A stretch of 5,961 bases of DNA from Cytophagales bacterium (lineage in GTDB: Bacteria > Bacteroidota > Bacteroidia > Cytophagales > Cyclobacteriaceae). The DNA lies in assembly GCA_003541895.1 (NCBI GenBank), contig DPLR01000645.1, positions 1 to 5,961 of the forward strand, read 5' to 3'. Both the position numbers and the translations under genes were made by a program. Positions 1-5,961 of this stretch are shown one piece after another (positions within the stretch are counted from its first letter, which is position 1; each line of letters begins with the position of its first letter). The notes under the pieces are model-generated. The model ran no database searches and was not told the DNA's origin. It worked only from the letters and a program-made list of their open reading frames with translations.

Positions 1-414
1 TCCATTCACCTGTGTCCAACCTGTAATTCCGGGCCTCACTTGATGACGTTGGCGCTGCTGCGCATTCATTAATGGTAAGTACTCGATCGGCAAAGGGCGC
101 GGACCTATCAACGACATTTCTCCTCGTAGCACATTCCACAGTTGGGGCAGTTCATCCAAAGAAAGAAAACGCAACACATCTCCCCACCAAAACCTGCGCG
201 CTTCATTATCCTCTTTTCCCTCTAGCAAAGTTCTGAATTTAAAAATGGTAAAAGGAACATTGTTTCTACCAATTCTTTGTTGCTTAAAAAAAACAGGAAA
301 CTGAAATTGAAAAACATACATCAACACAATCAAGGCTAACAACCCGCTGAGTACAACTAGCATAATGAGTGTAAAAAATAAATCCATCGCACGTTTTAAA
401 AATAGTAAGTACAT
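1..414 (-). CDS. Sugar transferase, PglC/WcaJ-type monotopic phosphoglycosyl transferase (C-terminus beyond window)
   Basis: This is the first 138 codons of a bacterial sugar transferase (PF02397-type), an inner-membrane enzyme that moves a sugar-1-phosphate from a nucleotide sugar onto undecaprenyl phosphate to start a glycan. Seen in the translation: an N-terminal KRAMDLFF segment and a hydrophobic re-entrant helix (about residues 8-36), FFKQQRIGR (42-50), PFTIFKFRT (54-62), the catalytic Asp-Glu pair in SLDELPQLWNVLRG (D87, E88), SLIGPRPLPIEYLP (101-114) and RHQVRPGITGWTQVNG (123-138). Family members of the short PglC type are about 200 residues, so roughly 60 are missing past base 1. There is no large N-terminal multi-TM domain as in WcaJ/WbaP, so the short class is favoured. 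Its ATG overlaps the stop of the upstream wecA-like gene (TGATG), which suggests translational coupling. The substrate cannot be read from the sequence; diNAcBac-type sugars are one possibility for PglC relatives. Confidence 0.93.
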   Translation of the reverse strand, partial: MYLLFLKRAMDLFFTLIMLVVLSGLLALIVLMYVFQFQFPVFFKQQRIGRNNVPFTIFKFRTLLEGKEDNEARRFWWGDVLRFLSLDELPQLWNVLRGEMSLIGPRPLPIEYLPLMNAQQRQRHQVRPGITGWTQVNG

Positions 415-1388
415 CACAATGAAGTTGTCGCCTTAATTTTAATCATCACACTTCTTCGCACAAAAAAATAAATCAGCACAAAAATAATACTGATGACTAA
501 TGCCCAACTATTTTTAGAATTGATCAAGCAATAGATGATCATGACATTAAGGATACCCTGAGCGATTCCATAACTTACCGATACCACCCGTTGTGAAATT
601 TTTAATTCATTGGATAGATATTGATACAAATGGGTACGATGAGGTGTTAAAATATTTTCTTTTCTTTTGAGCCTTGAGAAAATGGTGACCAGCGAGTCAG
701 TACCATAGACCAATAACAGCAACGGCCAAAGGAAATTTCCGGTAGCATTGATCAGCTGAAGGATAATAAAAATCAGAATCAATGCCATCGTCACACTGCC
801 CACATCACCTGCGAAACAGCGTGCCGTTTTACGAAAATTAAAGAACAGAAATACGAGTACTCCCATCGCACTGTACATTAAAAGCGAATTGCTTGTAAAA
901 TGAAGTTGCTCATTGATGAACCAAAAAGAGCCAATTGTTACTAAGGAATATACTCCTGTTATTCCATTGATGCCGTCCATAAAATTGAAAGCGTTTATGG
1001 TGCCTACGCAAAAAGGCACGGCAAGCACCAAAAAATAGAATGGCCAATGGAGCGGCCATAACTGAAAAAACAATAGACCAAGCGCTATGAACTGAAAAAA
1101 GAAACGCACATACACATTAAGCGAAGTAACATCATCCAGGAAACTGATGATAGCGACCATGACTGTTGCTAACACAAACCACGGCCATAATTCGGTAGCG
1201 AAATACCACAGTAAAATAGCAAACACAAAGATAATTCCGCCTCCGCGAATGATTGGATTGACATGCGAACTTCGCTCATTGGGTTTGTCAATAATATTAT
1301 AGAGATCCGCAATTTTAAAGTAAATCAATTCCAGCACTAGCAAGAATGCGGTAGATAATCCCAACCTGATGAGTAAACTATTTTCCAT
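414..1388 (-). CDS. WecA/WbpL-like undecaprenyl-phosphate sugar-1-phosphate transferase
   Basis: This is a polytopic glycosyltransferase 4 family (MraY/WecA, PF00953) protein of 324 residues with about ten hydrophobic segments. It is expected to transfer a HexNAc-1-phosphate from a UDP-sugar to undecaprenyl phosphate at the cytoplasmic face. Family signatures counted from the chosen start: DKPNERSSHVNPIIRGGG (34-51), the Mg-binding DD pair in FLDDVTS (D85-D86), NAFNFMDGINGI (132-143), FAGDVGS (192-198) and the basic cytoplasmic loop TPHRTHLYQ (248-256). The length is normal for WecA/WbpL. I chose the ATG at 1388, ten codons inside the longest open frame (which begins at 1418), because it leaves only an 11-nt overlap with the upstream gene and places the first TM helix at the N-terminus. 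It is followed directly by a second initiating transferase. Being downstream of a WbpV-like reductase suggests a QuiNAc/FucNAc-type donor, as in the Pseudomonas WbpV-WbpL pair; this is inference. Confidence 0.93.
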   Translation of the reverse strand: MENSLLIRLGLSTAFLLVLELIYFKIADLYNIIDKPNERSSHVNPIIRGGGIIFVFAILLWYFATELWPWFVLATVMVAIISFLDDVTSLNVYVRFFFQFIALGLLFFQLWPLHWPFYFLVLAVPFCVGTINAFNFMDGINGITGVYSLVTIGSFWFINEQLHFTSNSLLMYSAMGVLVFLFFNFRKTARCFAGDVGSVTMALILIFIILQLINATGNFLWPLLLLVYGTDSLVTIFSRLKRKENILTPHRTHLYQYLSNELKISQRVVSVSYGIAQGILNVMIIYCLINSKNSWALVISIIFVLIYFFVRRSVMIKIKATTSL

Positions 1389-2292
1389 CGAATGAATGAA
1401 TCGTTTGAATGAGGCCATCGCGCATCGTTATTGGAAATGGTGCAGCCATGGCAGAAGTAATTTTTTGATTGGAGATCATCATATTTTCAGTCAACTTAGA
1501 AATCATCGCTCTTCTTCCCACAAGTTTCGCACACCACTCAATTACAGAGGTAGGTAAATTCCACACCACTGGTTTTTTATTCAATGTGTGAGCAATGAGT
1601 TGATACAATTCTTTCGTTGATAAAAATCCATCATCGGCCAAATGGTAAATACCCGATTCTATTTTGTTTTCAGAAAGCAATTGTTCAATCACAAAACAAA
1701 AATTACCTATACTCAAAAATGATCGTTGATTGTGAAAGGCACCTAACGGAAATGGCATCCCCGTTTTCACAAATTGATACAACAAATTCAAATTGCCTTT
1801 GTTACCCGGACCATGCATCATCCCCGGGCGAAGTATATAAAATGATTTACTGCTCCACTGCTTTGATAAAATATATTCCTCCGCTTTCAATTTCGATTTT
1901 CCGTAATCCGAACTCGGATGAGGTTGAATAGATTCATTGGCTGGAACAGAAGATGTATCGCACACGGCTTTGATCGAACTAACGTAAATAAATTTTTCAA
2001 TGTTGGATTTCAGTACTTCTTCCACGAGTGCTTTCGTCCCTTCGGTATTCACCCGGTAATAATCTTCTGTGGTAAACTGACCACTTAAATCGTGGGCTAT
2101 TCCTGCGAGATGAATCACCGTATCAATCTTAGTTTCATCCAATGCCATGGCCGAAAAATTAGGAAGATATTCCACTCCTTCTACCTTGCTCCTACTATAC
2201 CCTTTCAGAACGATGTCCGGAACGTTTGCAAAATGGCGTACCAAATTGATCCCCACAAATCCCGATATCCCTGTGATCAATACGTTTTTCAT
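1378..2292 (-). CDS. NAD-dependent epimerase/dehydratase-family (extended SDR) sugar-nucleotide reductase, WbpV-like
   Basis: This 304-residue extended short-chain dehydrogenase has a complete Rossmann fold. It starts MKNVLITGISGFVG with the nucleotide-binding glycines G8, G11 and G14. HLAGIAHD (61-68), VSSIKAV (104-110) and the catalytic YGKSK (Y130, K134) follow, with Ser105/106 as the third catalytic position. The segment LRPGMMHGPGNKGN (154-167) and then PLGAFHNQRS (182-191) closely resemble WbpV/WbpK-type enzymes of O-antigen loci, which reduce or epimerise UDP-4-keto-6-deoxy-HexNAc to UDP-QuiNAc or UDP-FucNAc. A UDP-hexose or UDP-HexNAc 4-epimerase is the alternative. The 4,6-dehydratase that would feed it is not in the window. 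It is soluble, with no signal or membrane segment. Its last 11 bases overlap the start of the wecA-like gene, and a 46-bp gap filled with heptamer repeats separates it from the upstream glycosyltransferase gene. Confidence 0.9.
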   Translation of the reverse strand: MKNVLITGISGFVGINLVRHFANVPDIVLKGYSRSKVEGVEYLPNFSAMALDETKIDTVIHLAGIAHDLSGQFTTEDYYRVNTEGTKALVEEVLKSNIEKFIYVSSIKAVCDTSSVPANESIQPHPSSDYGKSKLKAEEYILSKQWSSKSFYILRPGMMHGPGNKGNLNLLYQFVKTGMPFPLGAFHNQRSFLSIGNFCFVIEQLLSENKIESGIYHLADDGFLSTKELYQLIAHTLNKKPVVWNLPTSVIEWCAKLVGRRAMISKLTENMMISNQKITSAMAAPFPITMRDGLIQTIHSFDGK

Positions 2293-2304
2293 CGAATCAT
2301 TACC

Positions 2305-2339
2305 CTTGAATCTGAAATTTGAAACCTGAAACCGGAAAC
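2305..2339. repeat. Five imperfect tandem heptamers (CTGAAAC type) between two operon genes
   Basis: Five adjacent 7-bp units read CTTGAAT, CTGAAAT, TTGAAAC, CTGAAAC and CGGAAAC on the plus strand (GTTTCAG-like on the transcribed strand). They fill nearly all of the 46-bp gap between the glycosyltransferase stop at 2339 and the SDR start at 2292; the last unit ends on the first base of that stop codon. The array is not coding. The period of exactly 7 and the degenerate copies indicate an old microsatellite-like tract. Any role in transcript spacing or stability is unknown. Confidence 0.7.
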
Positions 2340-3085
2340 TAATTAACCAACTCCATCCACTTTCTAAAATACTTGCTATACACCATCAACCAGTTCGTGT
2401 ACAATCCATTTTCACGACAACCCCGCATAATTTCATCATTCAAAATAATATTACTTCTCCAATTACGAGAGCTGACACCCCCTTTGCGCATCACTACCAT
2501 TTTCATGGGAAGGTATTTGTATTTCAATTGATGAACATACAGAAAACGGATCAGCAATTCATAGTCAGCTGCGATCTTGTAATCTGTCTTAAATACCCCA
2601 AACTGCTCATAATATTTTTTTCGGATAAACACCGCTGGGTGCGGTGGCATAAAACCCCAGGCCAATTTTTTTGGATACCAATGCGCAGCCGAATACGTGC
2701 GCACGACTTTGGATAAATTCTGCGGATCAACAAACACCAGATCGCCAAATACCACATCCACCGAAGGATCGACAAACTCTTTCGCCACTTTCGATACGAT
2801 GGTACTATCCGTATAAAAATCATCCGAGTTCAAAATTCCTATCACTTCACCGGTGGCCAACTTCAACGCTTTGTTCATGGCATCATAAATGCCTTGATCG
2901 GGCTCGCTGATCCATCGATCTATTTTGGATGCATGTGCATGAATGATCTCCACCGTTCCATCGCTTGAGTTTCCGTCTACCACAATATATTCAATGTGTG
3001 GATAATCCTGTGACCGTACCGAGTTGATAGTATCTACTAGTGTCGATGCCGAGTTGAACGCAACAGTGAGTATAGATATTTTCAT
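2339..3085 (-). CDS. GT2-family glycosyltransferase (GT-A fold)
   Basis: This 248-residue cytoplasmic glycosyltransferase of the GT2 (WcaA/SpsA-like, PF00535) family probably adds one sugar to a lipid-linked glycan intermediate. Seen: the N-terminal beta strand and loop KISILTVAFNSASTL (2-16), the nucleotide-binding VVDGNSSDGT (35-44), SEPDQGIYDAMNKAL (60-74), the metal-binding DXD-type NSDD (86-89), PPHPAVFIRK (147-156), a probable catalytic-base region ADYELLIR (173-180) and the acceptor-side GGVSS (202-206). Length and motif order match the short GT2 enzymes common in Bacteroidota polysaccharide loci. It starts only 2 nt after the stop of the transposase-like gene, so both are probably on one transcript. 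Donor and acceptor sugars cannot be assigned from sequence alone. Confidence 0.92.
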   Translation of the reverse strand: MKISILTVAFNSASTLVDTINSVRSQDYPHIEYIVVDGNSSDGTVEIIHAHASKIDRWISEPDQGIYDAMNKALKLATGEVIGILNSDDFYTDSTIVSKVAKEFVDPSVDVVFGDLVFVDPQNLSKVVRTYSAAHWYPKKLAWGFMPPHPAVFIRKKYYEQFGVFKTDYKIAADYELLIRFLYVHQLKYKYLPMKMVVMRKGGVSSRNWRSNIILNDEIMRGCRENGLYTNWLMVYSKYFRKWMELVN

Positions 3086-3087
3086 TT

Positions 3088-3549
3088 TTACTCAAGCGGT
3101 TTAAACAAATAACGTTCGTCAAAATCAATGCTAAAGTCGGTCAGCATGTTTGTATACTCCTCCATGAACGTCTGTTGCTTATGATGACTCTCCTGATTTT
3201 GAATGTACTGTATAACCGTGGGAACATTTGACATGCTGTGAGAAAAAGCACCGTACCCCTCCTGCCATTCAAATCTTCCTCTCAGAAATTTTTGCTCATT
3301 GATCCATTTTGAAGAGCTTCCCTTCACGTCCTGCATTAATTCTGAAAGCGACTGAACGGGACGCATTCCAAAAAAAATATGCACGTGATCAGGCATGCCG
3401 TTGATGGCGAGTAATTTATGATGATGGTGTTGAATAATGCCCGTAATGTATTTATAAAGTTCGTCTTTCCATTCGGGTTGAATCAATCCTTGCTGATATT
3501 TCACCACGAACACTGCATGAATATGAATTTGAGTATAGGTGTTGGGCAT
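3088..3549 (-). CDS. IS200/IS605-type Y1 (HUH) transposase, possible REP-associated RAYT
   Basis: This 153-residue single-domain Y1 transposase (PF01797, TnpA-like) is of the class that cuts and rejoins single-stranded DNA at hairpin ends through a phosphotyrosine link. Seen: the HUH pair in MPDHVHIFFGM (H55, H57), a candidate nucleophile in VIQYIQNQESHHKQ (Y115, with Q119 completing a YxxxQ arrangement), the conserved WQEGYGAFSHS block (95-105) and a family-typical C-terminus DFDERYLFKPLE. Full length and uninterrupted, so it may still be active. No tnpB or accessory gene is nearby. An array of eight palindromic 13-mers begins 74 bp upstream of its start, while downstream the stop is 2 nt from a glycosyltransferase start, leaving no room for a second transposon end. 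That one-sided arrangement fits a REP-associated, perhaps domesticated, tyrosine transposase better than an intact insertion sequence. A plain IS200 remnant is the alternative. Confidence 0.9.
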   Translation of the reverse strand: MPNTYTQIHIHAVFVVKYQQGLIQPEWKDELYKYITGIIQHHHHKLLAINGMPDHVHIFFGMRPVQSLSELMQDVKGSSSKWINEQKFLRGRFEWQEGYGAFSHSMSNVPTVIQYIQNQESHHKQQTFMEEYTNMLTDFSIDFDERYLFKPLE

Positions 3550-3579
3550 AGTGTTGTCTTGTAATCATGATCTTGCCCC

Positions 3580-3613
3580 TAAAACTATTTATTTTTTTAG
3601 TAATCCGTACCAA
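3580..3613 (-). promoter_or_regulatory. Weak candidate Bacteroidota promoter for the glycan operon
   Basis: On the minus strand TAGTTTTA (3587-3580) is one base off the Bacteroidota -7 consensus TAnnTTTG. A TTG (3613-3611) lies 23 nt upstream, slightly longer than the usual spacing to the -33 element. It lies about 30 nt before the transposase ATG and between that gene and the REP array. The match is weak; the placement is the main support. Confidence 0.25.
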
Positions 3614-3686
3614 GGATATTACGTCCCTACGGGACTAGTCATTAAACTTAACTTTTTTGATCAACTTGATTGCGTCCCTACAGGAT
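3614..3686 (-). repeat. Two-palindrome REP unit 1
   Basis: Unit 1 reads on the minus strand. Its outer palindrome (3623-3635) is perfect, while the inner one (3674-3686) is decayed: the second arm is AGGAT instead of GGGAC, giving one mismatch and one wobble. The 38-nt spacer contains TTGATCAA and is nearly the same as that of unit 3. The flank facing the transposase gene reads GTAATATCC on the minus strand, a variant of the GAAATATCC flank of unit 4. Confidence 0.8.
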
Positions 3687-3741
3687 TGGAATAGACCACA
3701 CGTGTCAACATCGACTTCCAAATGAGAGAAATCCGCATTAA

Positions 3742-3811
3742 GTCCCATAGGGACAAAACATAGTAAAAAAATCCCATTACAACTGATCAAATCCCGTAGG
3801 GATGAAATATC
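3742..3811 (+). repeat. Two-palindrome REP unit 2
   Basis: The first palindrome (3742-3754) has its loop changed from GTA to ATA. The second (3791-3803) has A and T at its ends in place of G and C, so the stem remains paired. The 36-nt spacer starts AAAACATAGTAAAAAAATCC and matches unit 4 almost base for base, as does the upstream flank ATCCGCATTAA. The unit ends GAAATATC. Confidence 0.82.
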
Positions 3812-3822
3812 ACACGTGCATC

Positions 3823-3892
3823 TATTTCGTCCCTACGGGACTCGACATTAAACTTAACTTACTTGATCAACTTGATTTTGTCCCTACGGGAC
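3823..3892 (-). repeat. Two-palindrome REP unit 3, head-to-head with unit 2
   Basis: Both palindromes (3829-3841, 3880-3892) are perfect. The 38-nt spacer is a close copy of the unit 1 spacer. Its outer GAAATA flank faces that of unit 2 across a 13-nt loop containing CACGTG. Bases 3791-3809 can therefore pair with 3823-3841 to form a 19-position stem with one end mismatch and one G-U pair in RNA. Confidence 0.82.
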
Positions 3893-3969
3893 TGAAGGGA
3901 AACCACTACCTTAGAAAAAAATAGTATCTGTAAAATTAATTAGTAGCTCCAAATAGGAATCCGCATTAA

Positions 3970-4041
3970 GTCCCGTAGGGACAAAACATAGTAAAAAAAT
4001 CCCATTACAAACTCATCAAGTCCCGTAGGGACGAAATATCC
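3970..4041 (+). repeat. Two-palindrome REP unit 4
   Basis: Both palindromes (3970-3982, 4020-4032) are perfect. The spacer of 37 nt and the ATCCGCATTAA upstream flank match unit 2. The unit ends GAAATATCC, 24 bp before the terminator hairpin of the neighbouring gene. Confidence 0.82.
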
Positions 4042-4065
4042 CATTATTAAAGGGCCAGAAAATAA

Positions 4066-4091
4066 AAAACCTCCGAGCAAACGGAGGTTTT
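4066..4091 (-). terminator. Intrinsic terminator of the DUF4230-like gene
   Basis: A perfect 10-bp stem pairs AAAACCTCCG (4066-4075) with CGGAGGTTTT (4082-4091) around a 6-nt loop. Read on the minus strand the hairpin ends in a T-run (GGAGGTTTTTTATTTT). It lies 34 bp after the gene stop and separates that gene from the REP array. Confidence 0.9.
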
Positions 4092-4124
4092 AAGTTAAGA
4101 ATGACACATATGTGCTCAGCTTCA

Positions 4125-4832
4125 TCAAATGCTGTTGGTTAACAGAATTGAGGGGATAAAACCAAAAGGAATTGCCTCAAATGTCTCAGAATAACTTTCT
4201 TTAGGGTCAACTTTATTCGCAACTGTTGTTAAGGTCGCTGGATTCTCCTTTTTAAAAATCACCTGAATATCTGCCCTGCCTACGGACCTCAACAGAACTT
4301 CAATGTATTGCTTGCCCTCCACCTCTGCCTGTACTAGAATGCGTTGCGTTACAGCCATTTGTTTTACCGAGTCTATTCTGTTTGCGATTAAGGATTGAAC
4401 ATAATTCCCGATTACGGGATAAAGATCTTTGCCTATGTGAACTTGCAGCGAGCGCGTTTCACGAAAAACCATTTTGTCTACTTCATAAAGTGGCTGGTTC
4501 AAGCGCGCGTGGGGCAAAACAATCTGCTTTACTGAATCTCCTTTTTTTATCAATTCAATTTCTTTGAGATTCAGGTAAGCGGTAATTTCAACGGGCACAA
4601 AAACAATGGCACGAATGGGTTTTCGGGGATCGTTATTTCGATGAAGAAAAAATAAATCATTGTAGGTGTGTTTAACCAAGTGCAGTTCACGAATGGACAA
4701 GATCTGCTCCAGCGTGAGGTGTGGCGGCACGACTTCAGTGCGAGAACGCCCTGTGAAGAGTCCACAAAAAAATGCAATCACCAACGTGATTACATTGACA
4801 CCGATGATCAGAGATGTTTTCATACAATTCAT
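4125..4832 (-). CDS. Membrane-anchored DUF4230-like protein
   Basis: This 235-residue protein has one N-terminal hydrophobic helix (about residues 7-27, ending before GRSRTE), so it is probably anchored in the inner membrane with the remainder outside the cytoplasm. The soluble part resembles the DUF4230 family: a LTLEQILSIRELHLVKHTYND segment split across residues 39-59, a beta-rich stretch with IRAIVFVPVEITAYLNL (73-89), IVLPHARL (104-111), YEVDKMVFRE (116-125), and then a helix leading to a final strand VEGKQYIEVLLRS (about 171-183). The family's function is not known. The start at 4832 is followed three codons later by a second ATG (4823) that is about equally plausible. It is a single-gene unit with terminators on both sides. 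The family assignment rests on memory of the pattern and is less certain than the coding call. Confidence 0.78.
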   Translation of the reverse strand: MNCMKTSLIIGVNVITLVIAFFCGLFTGRSRTEVVPPHLTLEQILSIRELHLVKHTYNDLFFLHRNNDPRKPIRAIVFVPVEITAYLNLKEIELIKKGDSVKQIVLPHARLNQPLYEVDKMVFRETRSLQVHIGKDLYPVIGNYVQSLIANRIDSVKQMAVTQRILVQAEVEGKQYIEVLLRSVGRADIQVIFKKENPATLTTVANKVDPKESYSETFEAIPFGFIPSILLTNSI

Positions 4833-4915: not shown

Positions 4916-5668
4916 TCATGTCAGGCTCGGTTTAGTGAATACTATTTTGCTAATCTTCTGGTACTCCTGGCTCCGCAGTCCGAAAGCTGCGCGTACATAC
5001 TTCTGCACACTGCGACTTGTTTTCAAAAGCGAGTCACCGGTGTACAACGCTTTGTCTCGCGCTATCCTCTTGCTGTTCCAGTTCGACTGAGCCTGAATTA
5101 CGGTGCTGTTCATTTGCTGAAGCTCAGCAGCCATACTTGTCAAGCCCGCTACCTGCAACTCCGGTTCGTTGGGCTGATAGTTGGCCTCTGCGCTTACCAG
5201 TTTCACCAAGTTTGCAAAATGATTGGCTTTGCTGGCATAGCTGGCAGGCGGAGTTGCCTTGGGCACAGCACTCACCTCGGCTTGTGGTGAAGGGGCTGTT
5301 GCTGGTGCGGCTGTTGGTACAGTTCCTACCGGTGCAGCTTTACCACCGTCTTTTCTGCGACCTGTAATCTGGCGCAATAAAAACCGCGCGTCATTCAGTG
5401 TCTGCTCACTTGCCCCTGAAGAAGCCAGTGTATACACGATGCTTGATGCCAACCGGGGTAGCGCATCAAAAACTATCTCCCGGCTGTTCGACTCCTTGTC
5501 AAGGTTCGACTTGGCAACGTTGGCGTCATCCACCGCCTGCTTGGCATTGATCAACTTGTTGGTCAATGACTGGATGGTGAGGTTGGGCTTTCCGGGGTTG
5601 TATCCTCCATACCCGGAGCAGAGACCTAAGAGCTTCTCAAAGGCTTCTACATTTTTTACATTGGACAT
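4916..5668 (-). CDS. Uncharacterised protein with two homologous helical halves
   Basis: I cannot give a function. Numbered from the longest frame (ATG at 5710, 264 residues), the protein has two related segments of about 95 residues. The first starts FEKLLGLCSGYGGYNP (24-39), the second FANLVKLVSAEANYQP (165-180). Each follows with a PxL(T/Q)(I/V)xxLT motif, a long polar helix (KQAVDDANVAKSNLDKE; QMNSTVIQAQSNWNSKR) and an L..S.S.V.Y-like helix (LASSIVYTLASSGAS; TSRSVQKYVRAAFG). A Pro/Ala-rich linker (about 118-160) joins them. There is no signal peptide or TM segment, so it is probably cytoplasmic. I prefer the inner ATG (5668, Met15 of the long frame, MSNVKNVEAFEKLL), because residues 1-14 look like translated leader and precede the first repeat only loosely. 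Composition is visibly more GC-rich than the glycan genes. It resembles a Bacteroidota-restricted family, from memory only. Confidence 0.82.
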   Translation of the reverse strand: MSNVKNVEAFEKLLGLCSGYGGYNPGKPNLTIQSLTNKLINAKQAVDDANVAKSNLDKESNSREIVFDALPRLASSIVYTLASSGASEQTLNDARFLLRQITGRRKDGGKAAPVGTVPTAAPATAPSPQAEVSAVPKATPPASYASKANHFANLVKLVSAEANYQPNEPELQVAGLTSMAAELQQMNSTVIQAQSNWNSKRIARDKALYTGDSLLKTSRSVQKYVRAAFGLRSQEYQKISKIVFTKPSLT

Positions 5669-5735
5669 ACATTTTCGTGCTTTATTGTGCACTTGTGTAT
5701 TGTTACGCAAATGCCCACTCGCAATGTTTTATCTT

Positions 5736-5859: not shown

Positions 5860-5961
5860 CTATCGCATTACATCCACCAAATGCACTTCTAATTCTTCAC
5901 TGGTGCGAATTTCTTCGACAGTGTGAGTTGCATTCTCCAACGGTACGAGTTGCATTCTCCA
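5860..5961 (-). CDS. Probable C-terminal end of a minus-strand gene (start beyond window)
   Basis: An open frame enters from the right edge and ends at TAG (5862-5860), giving 33 residues ending ENATHTVEEIRTSEELEVHLVDVMR. The hydrophilic, Glu-rich and Val/Leu-alternating composition looks like real protein, and the AT-rich stretch that follows (about 5825-5859) is typical intergenic DNA. The product is not recognisable. A caution is that the frame crosses a 22-bp direct repeat, whose period is not a multiple of three, so part of this could be non-coding repeat DNA. Confidence 0.4.
   Translation of the reverse strand, partial: WRMQLVPLENATHTVEEIRTSEELEVHLVDVMR
5925..5961. repeat. Direct repeat GAGTTGCATTCTCCA, period 22 bp, cut by window edge
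   Basis: Two exact 15-bp copies lie at 5925-5939 and 5947-5961 with 7 bp between them. The second ends at the last base of the window, so more copies may follow. A weaker third relative (GTGCGAATTTCTTCGACA, 5903-5920) precedes them. Confidence 0.65.

Follow-up and report, generated by a model that had tools for sequence, protein, structure and literature searches.

Introduction

The closest described counterparts of the system considered here are repetitive extragenic palindromes (REPs) with their REP-associated tyrosine transposases (RAYTs), and the REPtrons and REPINs named after them. As described for these systems (Nunvar 2010, PMC2817692; Bertels and Rainey 2011, PMC3116915; Quentin 2018, PMC6006769), they share with ours a low-copy gene for a Y1 transposase of the HUH type with inverted palindromic units on either side, dispersed units that lie mostly outside genes, a repeat type that tracks the protein, and several systems per genome that differ in their repeats. 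In SBW25, 93% of 430 REP doublets are inverted (PMC3116915), and head-to-tail REP dimers are described as absent or under-represented (PMC3733652). Here we examine a stretch of 5,961 nucleotides (hereafter the window) from a Cytophagales bacterium, in which a Y1 transposase gene, tnpA, adjoins an array of short hairpins grouped into co-oriented pairs that we call dyads. Our analysis indicates that the array is probably a REPtron-like system built from head-to-tail double hairpins; the neighbouring single-stranded DNA transposase likely recognizes the dyads and is predicted to cut and copy the DNA that they bound.

The entries on subclass 1.2 in a survey of Y1 transposases describe proteins with the motif Y---Q--HH, a conserved C-terminal part and few copies, found in Bacteroidetes and Cyanobacteria (Quentin 2018, PMC6006769). 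The table in that survey gives 'no' for structures associated with this subclass, and its text states that members are generally without typical IS200 ends. The REP search described there addressed TnpA_REP-encoding genomes and stems of 7-20 nt with GTAG or GTGG located 0-2 nt 5' of the stem, and the dyads reported below fall outside that search in both stem length and motif position. In the open-licence PMC literature, we found no report of REP-like partners for subclass 1.2. The hairpins of this subclass may have been overlooked owing to their short stems and to a motif that lies on the other side.

The window encodes a subclass 1.2 transposase

The window is contig C220 (DPLR01000645.1) of a 3.48-Mb metagenome-assembled genome (MAG) that is 73.9% complete and divided among 705 contigs. 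The tnpA gene occupies positions 3088..3549 on the minus strand, and its open reading frame (ORF) is intact, as the earlier note on this DNA had stated, encoding 153 amino acids that match PF01797 with E=3.1e-30. The HUH motif is D54-H55-V-H57, the catalytic tyrosine is Y115, and the signature Y115---Q119--H122H123 is present as YIQNQESHH. Residues H55, H57, Y115, Q119, H122 and H123 are invariant in an alignment of 35 sequences including that of the window, and Y115 aligns with position 132 of ISDra2 TnpA, the tyrosine mutated in structure 2xo6. An AlphaFold2 (AF2) model (pLDDT 90) adopts the IS200-type fold, and the protein scores above the cut-off of the NF033573 model. The fold and the combination of HUH, Tyr and Gln are thus like those of the IS200/IS605 transposases of subclass 1.1, such as IS608 and ISDra2.

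Judged by its Y---Q--HH signature, which is present in 148 of 153 fetched Y1 proteins (the five exceptions are IS200-like rows), the window protein is a TnpA_Y1 of subclass 1.2, and it resembles the published description of that subclass in signature, conserved C-terminal part, low copy number and Bacteroidota host. The gene is single-copy in its own genome, where Y1_Tnp matches occur at three places, and each of 96 related genomes has 0-7 matches, IS200-like ones included. The earlier note had proposed a REP/RAYT system. The arrangement is indeed REP- or REPtron-like, but the protein is not a RAYT: it has the class 1 signature rather than the class 2 motif Y---NP, and it scores 33.6 bits with the REP_Tyr_transpos model NF047646, for which the cut-off is 80. 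The sole cyanobacterial match examined, on Kovacikia plasmid L145 (L and G numbers are our handles for loci and genomes), is without the Y---Q--HH signature.

Hairpin pairs form an ordered array upstream of tnpA

Upstream of tnpA are eight hairpins of the form GTCCC-N3-GGGAC. The sequence TCCCNNNGGGA occurs seven times in 3624-4031, compared with 0.03 occurrences expected, and none of 200 dinucleotide shuffles reached seven. The earlier note had described eight perfect or near-perfect hairpins in ordered orientation and placed the system at 3088..4041. The order and seven good hairpins stand, but the eighth (GTCCCTACAGGAT, 3674-3686) is decayed, with only 3 bp paired in a fold of that strand, and the interval combines the gene with the array, which proper runs from about 3613 to 4042.

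On the plus strand the hairpins follow the order R R F F R R F F (R, reverse; F, forward), giving four dyads of alternating orientation (R, F, R, F) in which the paired hairpins are ~50 nt apart. The whole array (3613..4042) consists of two RR-FF units, dyads 1+2 and dyads 3+4, whose copies are 206 and 228-229 nt apart. It is located only upstream of tnpA, and no hairpin was found in the 700 nt downstream of the gene. We scored dyads with a covariance model, termed R1, which requires the dyad by design and was built from dyads with two 3-nt loops (34 of 51). Dyad 1, nearest the gene (3613..3692, minus strand), combines the good hairpin 3623-3635 with the decayed hairpin 3674-3686 and is the weakest of the four (31.3 bits, E=1.4e-5). 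Dyad 2 (3736..3813, plus strand; hairpins 3742-3754 and 3791-3803) scores 52.7 bits (E=4.9e-10) with a DNA fold z of -2.2; dyad 3 (3819..3898, minus strand; hairpins 3829-3841 and 3880-3892) scores 41.2 bits (E=1.2e-7) with z=-3.3; and dyad 4 (3964..4042, plus strand; hairpins 3970-3982 and 4020-4032) scores 54.5 bits (E=2.1e-10) with z=-2.7. A search of Rfam yielded no family match at gathering scores.

The exact 13-mer occurs eight times in this genome, on contigs C220 and C510. Allowing up to 2 mismatches gives 19 matches, compared with 33 for a reversed control, and therefore only the C220 and C510 arrays stand out. The C510 array (L012 100-720) lies outside the three Y1_Tnp places, has similar spacer sequence and contains an N gap; its repeats are probably collapsed in the assembly. 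The dyad model finds 5 dyads in the genome. Because the exact palindrome is present at only two loci, we set it aside as a measure of dispersal in this genome and used relatives and the dyad model instead. Another short repeat, represented by CATTCTCCAACRGT and GAGTTGCA-like sequences, is found near both arrays (window 5905-5961; L012 700-735).

Same-stem hairpins adjoin relatives of the gene

For the association of hairpins with the gene, we used 144 loci encoding distinct proteins, after one of 145 was dropped for having too little flank and duplicates L095 and L099 were dropped. At 116 of the 144 loci, the gene has at least two same-stem hairpins no more than 300 nt away; the same was seen in 2 of 1440 dinucleotide shuffles and in 7 of 700 distant windows. 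This finding differs from the published account of subclass 1.2 noted above. At least three such hairpins are present at 72 loci, in none of the shuffles and in 2 distant windows. Likewise, of the hairpins with the GTCCC stem, 213 lie no more than 600 nt from the gene (129 kb of sequence) but only 4 beyond 1500 nt (489 kb), as counted at 110 loci that include two duplicates. Even where protein identity is 28-42%, same-stem hairpins, of other stem types, flank 11 of 15 loci.

The co-oriented pair that the earlier note took as the basic unit recurs beside these relatives and at dispersed sites. The two nearest hairpins on one side of the gene are spaced 48-54 nt apart in 67 of 94 cases. The common layout is a hairpin, ~9 nt that contain an ATAT-like stretch, the motif (G/T)(G/A)TAG, ~25 nt, a co-oriented second hairpin, and then GAnATAT. 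When sites were anchored on the ATAT..GTAG motif and no stem was required, a 5-bp stem was present at the expected place in 70 of 93 cases, compared with 20 of 1860 controls. The earlier note had likened the in-loop GTAG to the foot of Escherichia coli REPs. That likeness does not hold, and we set the in-loop GTAG aside as a guide: the loop varies by lineage (GTA, GTTA, TTTA, GAA, ATC), whereas the (G/T)(G/A)TAG motif, ~9 nt 3' of the outer hairpin, is conserved.

Oriented by this motif, dyads upstream of the gene are mostly F (59 F, 15 R) and those downstream mostly R (56 R, 23 F; Fisher p 2e-10), an inverted flanking like that of RAYT genes, of which the window lacks the downstream side. Hairpins occur within 160 nt of the gene on both sides at 58 of 108 loci, on one side at 39 and on neither at 11.

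Individual loci elaborate on this layout. Long arrays with a 48-51-nt period lie beside the gene in L017, L066, L149 and L192, the last with 25 paired hairpins, and in some clades an extra hairpin (CGGGT-TTCA, CGGAC-TTCA or CTGGCC-GCA) stands between the outer and inner hairpins (L032, L039, L162, L264). The Bernardetia plasmid NZ_CP147018.1 carries two pairs of GTTGC-stem hairpins upstream of a gene annotated tnpA. Orthologous dyad arrays in L128 (1048-1420) and L139 (1660-2256, with a 166-bp unit) differ in length and repeat number, which is a sign of local gain or loss of units. Homologs with hairpins are also found in MAGs labelled Planctomycetota (Pirellulaceae) and Calditrichaeota (L021 and L049), a placement that may reflect horizontal transfer or mis-binning.

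Stem type follows the transposase more than the host

Stem sequences vary by locus while pairing is kept, and include GTCCC, ATCCC, GCCCC, ACCCC, GTTCC, GCTCC, GTGCC and GTCGC, among others. In the 5-bp stems, the first pair is G-C or A-T and the second is T-A or C-G. Double changes are seen at 9 of 10 stem pairs in an alignment of 34 dyads, although these stems had been chosen for perfect pairing.

Stem comparisons were made with the 113 of 145 loci that have the necessary two same-stem hairpins, and 111 of these, with 3 outgroup rows, were placed on a maximum-likelihood protein tree. Stem type changes 32 times on this tree, compared with 61.8 times when types are shuffled, and none of 200 shuffles gave as low a number, in a test that is favoured by near-copies. 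The same stem is present in some sister rows from different genomes (L106/L109, L149/L152, L121/L155 and L151/L163). Conversely, among gene copies residing in one genome whose stems could be scored, 0 of 23 pairs share a dominant stem, compared with ~3.8 expected if types were dealt randomly. Given the clustering on the tree and the absence of sharing within genomes, hairpin type tracks the enzyme more closely than the host, with some drift.

A unit with two dyads appears to have moved in one genome

What comes nearest to evidence of movement is found in genome G043, wherein a whole unit and solo dyads share an end. This genome encodes a distant member of the family, 33% identical to the window protein and with the motif Y---Q--HH, within a dyad-gene-dyad unit of 745 bp. 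Two copies of this unit, 99% identical, lie on different contigs and have unrelated flanking sequences. The unit is bounded by two outer hairpins, one from an F dyad and one from an R dyad. At 11 further places only the left end of the unit is matched, from base 1-15 to base 88-122, and nine of these matches stop at base 93, six nt past the inner hairpin. Five places match only the right end. The second 745-bp copy (L265 784-1528) is enclosed by flanks that are inverted repeats of each other (CCATCAGGAA/TTCCTGATGG), as is a nearby right-end copy (L265 1633-1760; CATCCGGAAG/CTTCCGGATG), as if each had been inserted midway into a further palindrome.

Elsewhere, gene copies within a genome are mostly dissimilar. 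The highest identity among fetched copies is 38-70% in 17 genomes; in eight more it is 99% (G043), 93% (G278), 85% (G243), 79% (G195) and 40-58% in the remaining four. For comparison, three of the seven copies of an IS200 control in G090 are 98-100% identical. Because identity is low in most genomes and 79-99% in four, the copies thus appear to be mostly old residents, with recent movement in some.

These data also bear on the alternative that tnpA belongs to an IS200-type insertion sequence (IS) ending in these hairpins, such that the dyad-gene-dyad unit is what moves and the solo dyads and arrays are its remains. The fold, catalytic residues and NF033573 score are those expected of such an element, an F and an R dyad often bracket the gene, and the G043 copies are joined by a G278 pair that is 85% alike over 812 bp (93% protein identity). 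We nevertheless regard this explanation as unlikely. The divergence of copies in the 17 genomes and in four of the eight others is far from that of the IS200 control, remains left by random deletion would not share the end base found in nine G043 solo dyads, and the ends are inverted dyads as opposed to the single left and right hairpins of IS200/IS605 elements.

Dyads co-occur with the gene and are dispersed

Among the 96 relatives, R1 detects dyads in 43 of the 53 genomes that encode a homolog at E<=1e-20, compared with 8 of the 43 others. The exact 13-mer is present in 19 of the 96, all of them among the 59 genomes with a homolog at E<=1e-3 and none among the 37 without. In a sample of 198 genomes from across the Bacteroidota, dyads are present in 63 of the 86 genomes that have a homolog at E<=1e-20 and in 14 of the 112 that lack one. 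In that sample, detection reaches 51 of 55 genomes when the homolog has E<=1e-40, compared with 12 of 31 when only weaker homologs are present. Thus the repeat is neither confined to the window locus nor equally common in genomes lacking the gene, two outcomes that the earlier note had named as refuting its proposal.

Dyad counts are limited by the number of candidates scored per genome, which was 49 for the relatives, 150 for a set of ten genomes and 23 for the phylum sample. With the best 150 candidates each, G072 has the most dyads of the ten (67), followed by G043 (43) and G086 (38), the larger counts being lower bounds. In seven genomes, 98 of 140 listed dyads (from 228 counted) have no homolog within 5 kb. 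They occupy 70 separate places, and at 51 of these a single dyad was detected. Where neighbouring dyads are less than 1 kb apart (n=28), 10 pairs are '+-' and 8 are '-+', both inverted, with the dyad itself required by the search model.

In G046, a solitary dyad is matched at five other places over 63-69 bp only, in at least 4 different contexts. The match begins shortly before the outer hairpin and stops shortly after the inner one, and the stems include the compensatory pair ATCCC/GGGAT and ACCCC/GGGGT. In G072, the repeated unit is instead a longer inverted arrangement of 170-206 bp that is REPIN-like.

Dyads are rarely found in coding sequence: 9 of 202 paired hairpins lie inside ORFs of more than 100 amino acids, as counted at 43 loci (of 50 fetched, 7 were without a pair) that overlap one another and in some cases adjoin the gene. 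This location, and compensatory stem changes that would fit RNA equally well, are compatible with the view that the hairpins are chiefly host elements acting at transcription ends, in mRNA stability or in protein binding, with the transposase gene a passenger or a target of their regulation. Such roles are reported for classical REPs in the account of PMC2817692. We find this view very unlikely, since stem type tracks the transposase lineage more than the host genome, the presence of dyads depends strongly on that of the gene, and none of the three terminator-like sites in 3000-4200 of the window is inside the array.

Observations that weigh against a REPtron-like system

Some dyads travel within other mobile elements. 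In G059, the dyads of L131, L132 and L133 reside within a miniature inverted-repeat transposable element (MITE) that has inverted repeats GGCTCTATTCTAAAA and 8-bp target duplications, and in L131 and L133 a remnant of the tnpA C-terminus lies between FF and RR. A second MITE-like type with ends AATGACTATCCGC carries a dyad in L129 and L130, with an apparent 8-9-bp target duplication in L130. Because the G059 dyads are inside MITEs with these features, they were moved by another transposase. That dyads spread chiefly as cargo of such elements, with the Y1 gene also a hitchhiker, is suggested by these G059 loci but seems highly improbable in general, given that the stretch shared in G046 is the dyad alone, that in G043 the solo dyads and the gene-bearing unit have an end in common, and that stem types following the protein tree would be left unexplained.

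A number of further points argue against the reading that we favour. Of the 144 loci, 28 do not have a pair of same-stem hairpins at a distance of up to 300 nt from the gene. Dyads are undetected in 4 of 55 genomes with a homolog at E<=1e-40 and in 19 of 31 with weaker homologs, and the Fisher p of 7e-19 for co-occurrence in the phylum sample is overstated, as genomes share ancestry. The 14 genomes of that sample that carry dyads without a homolog at E<=1e-20 count in the same direction; the gene may have been lost or missed, or the dyads may have been moved by another enzyme. One of these genomes, G153, has 18 dyads, and G087, among the relatives, has 19 without a detected homolog. Stem types GCCCC (107 of 500 shuffles as low) and TTCCC (500 of 500) are unclustered on the tree, and stems differ between sister rows L013/L028, L111/L161 and L069/L077; the choice of perfectly paired stems likewise weakens the covariation. 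Some G043 solo dyads share longer flanks with each other, indicating that not all are independent insertions.

In addition, the comparisons made revealed neither cutting nor excision, nor an empty site. A candidate empty dyad site (L125 in G054 versus L137 in G021) was rejected, because the difference is a 144-bp MITE (L125 1868-2011) that adjoins the dyad and is absent from the orthologous place in the other species. For G072, two genus mates are 71-76% alike at non-repeat matches, and the flank upstream of the unit was unmatched. For the L233 region, no full-length ortholog was found in 57 other genomes. Lastly, the array of the window itself looks partly decayed. Its dyads carry degenerate forms of the (G/T)(G/A)TAG motif, one hairpin is decayed and the downstream dyad is missing, and this copy may therefore be losing function.

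A possible mechanism

In IS608 and ISDra2, the left and right ends recognized by TnpA are co-oriented hairpins on one strand. The two hairpins of a dyad have this same relationship, and we therefore propose that a dyad could represent a minimal element, a left and a right end with hardly any sequence separating them, that would be held by an enzyme dimer in which one subunit binds each hairpin. Y115 would cleave beside the hairpins and copying would proceed via single strands. In the REPtron-like system that we envision, the transposase would recognize dyads and would cut and copy the DNA bounded by them, which would mostly be dyads alone; its own gene, where it lies between dyads, would be carried along only occasionally. 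A bolder suggestion, which we regard as possible rather than probable, is that the dyad is the smallest transposable unit known, with ~25-60 nt between its ends, and that it is mobilized in trans by a class-1 TnpA, which would only rarely mobilize its own gene.

Relation to known systems and significance

Several features distinguish these elements from classical REPs. Their unit consists of two hairpins arranged head to tail, with stems of 5 bp, its motif lies 3' of the outer hairpin where REPs have GTAG or GTGG 0-2 nt 5' of the foot, and we find tens of dyads per genome, at most 67 among the ten genomes searched with 150 candidates, whereas REPs exceed 100 per genome. The system also departs from IS200/IS605 elements in that its gene copies are mostly divergent (G043 above all being an exception) and in that its hairpin pairs are inverted on both sides of the gene and also occur alone. 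As characterized in the relevant section of PMC6006769, class 3 TnpA_Y1 proteins similarly resemble both IS and REPtron and are flanked by atypical hairpins, but they have the motif Y----Q, the foot CnGA and a distribution in other phyla. The CGTC-tagged REPs include Bacteroidetes among their phyla in the account of Di Nocera 2013 (PMC3733652), and the R-oriented hairpins of the window include CGTCCC. As described there, however, those REPs have 8-9-bp stems that start with two A-T pairs, compared with 5 bp here, and in most cases a CCA tail, and they are without a transposase, whereas the hairpins here adjoin one.

A subclass with homologs (E<=1e-20) in 86 of the 198 sampled Bacteroidota genomes, which the entries in PMC6006769 list with neither IS ends nor REPs, thereby gains a defined and testable DNA partner. 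The presence in one genome of several enzyme-hairpin pairs with different stems, such as L054 (GTCGC) and L068 (GTCCC) of Spirosoma fluviale DSM 29961, is suited to studies of recognition, and possibly to the development of tools that write short sequences into genomes. The system is also a natural intermediate in which to ask how transposases of the IS200 type turned into genes that handle REPs. If the dyad is truly the smallest transposable unit, then subclass 1.2 would be a missing link between IS200/IS605 elements, with their co-oriented ends, and REPtrons, with their inverted REPs and resident gene.

Other features of the window

The 264-amino-acid ORF at 4916-5710 has no Pfam or PHROG match at E<=0.001. 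Positions 1-3085 hold a polysaccharide gene cluster that encodes a sugar transferase, a glycosyltransferase of family 4, an epimerase and a glycosyltransferase of family 2, the start codon of the last being located 2 nt past the tnpA stop codon.

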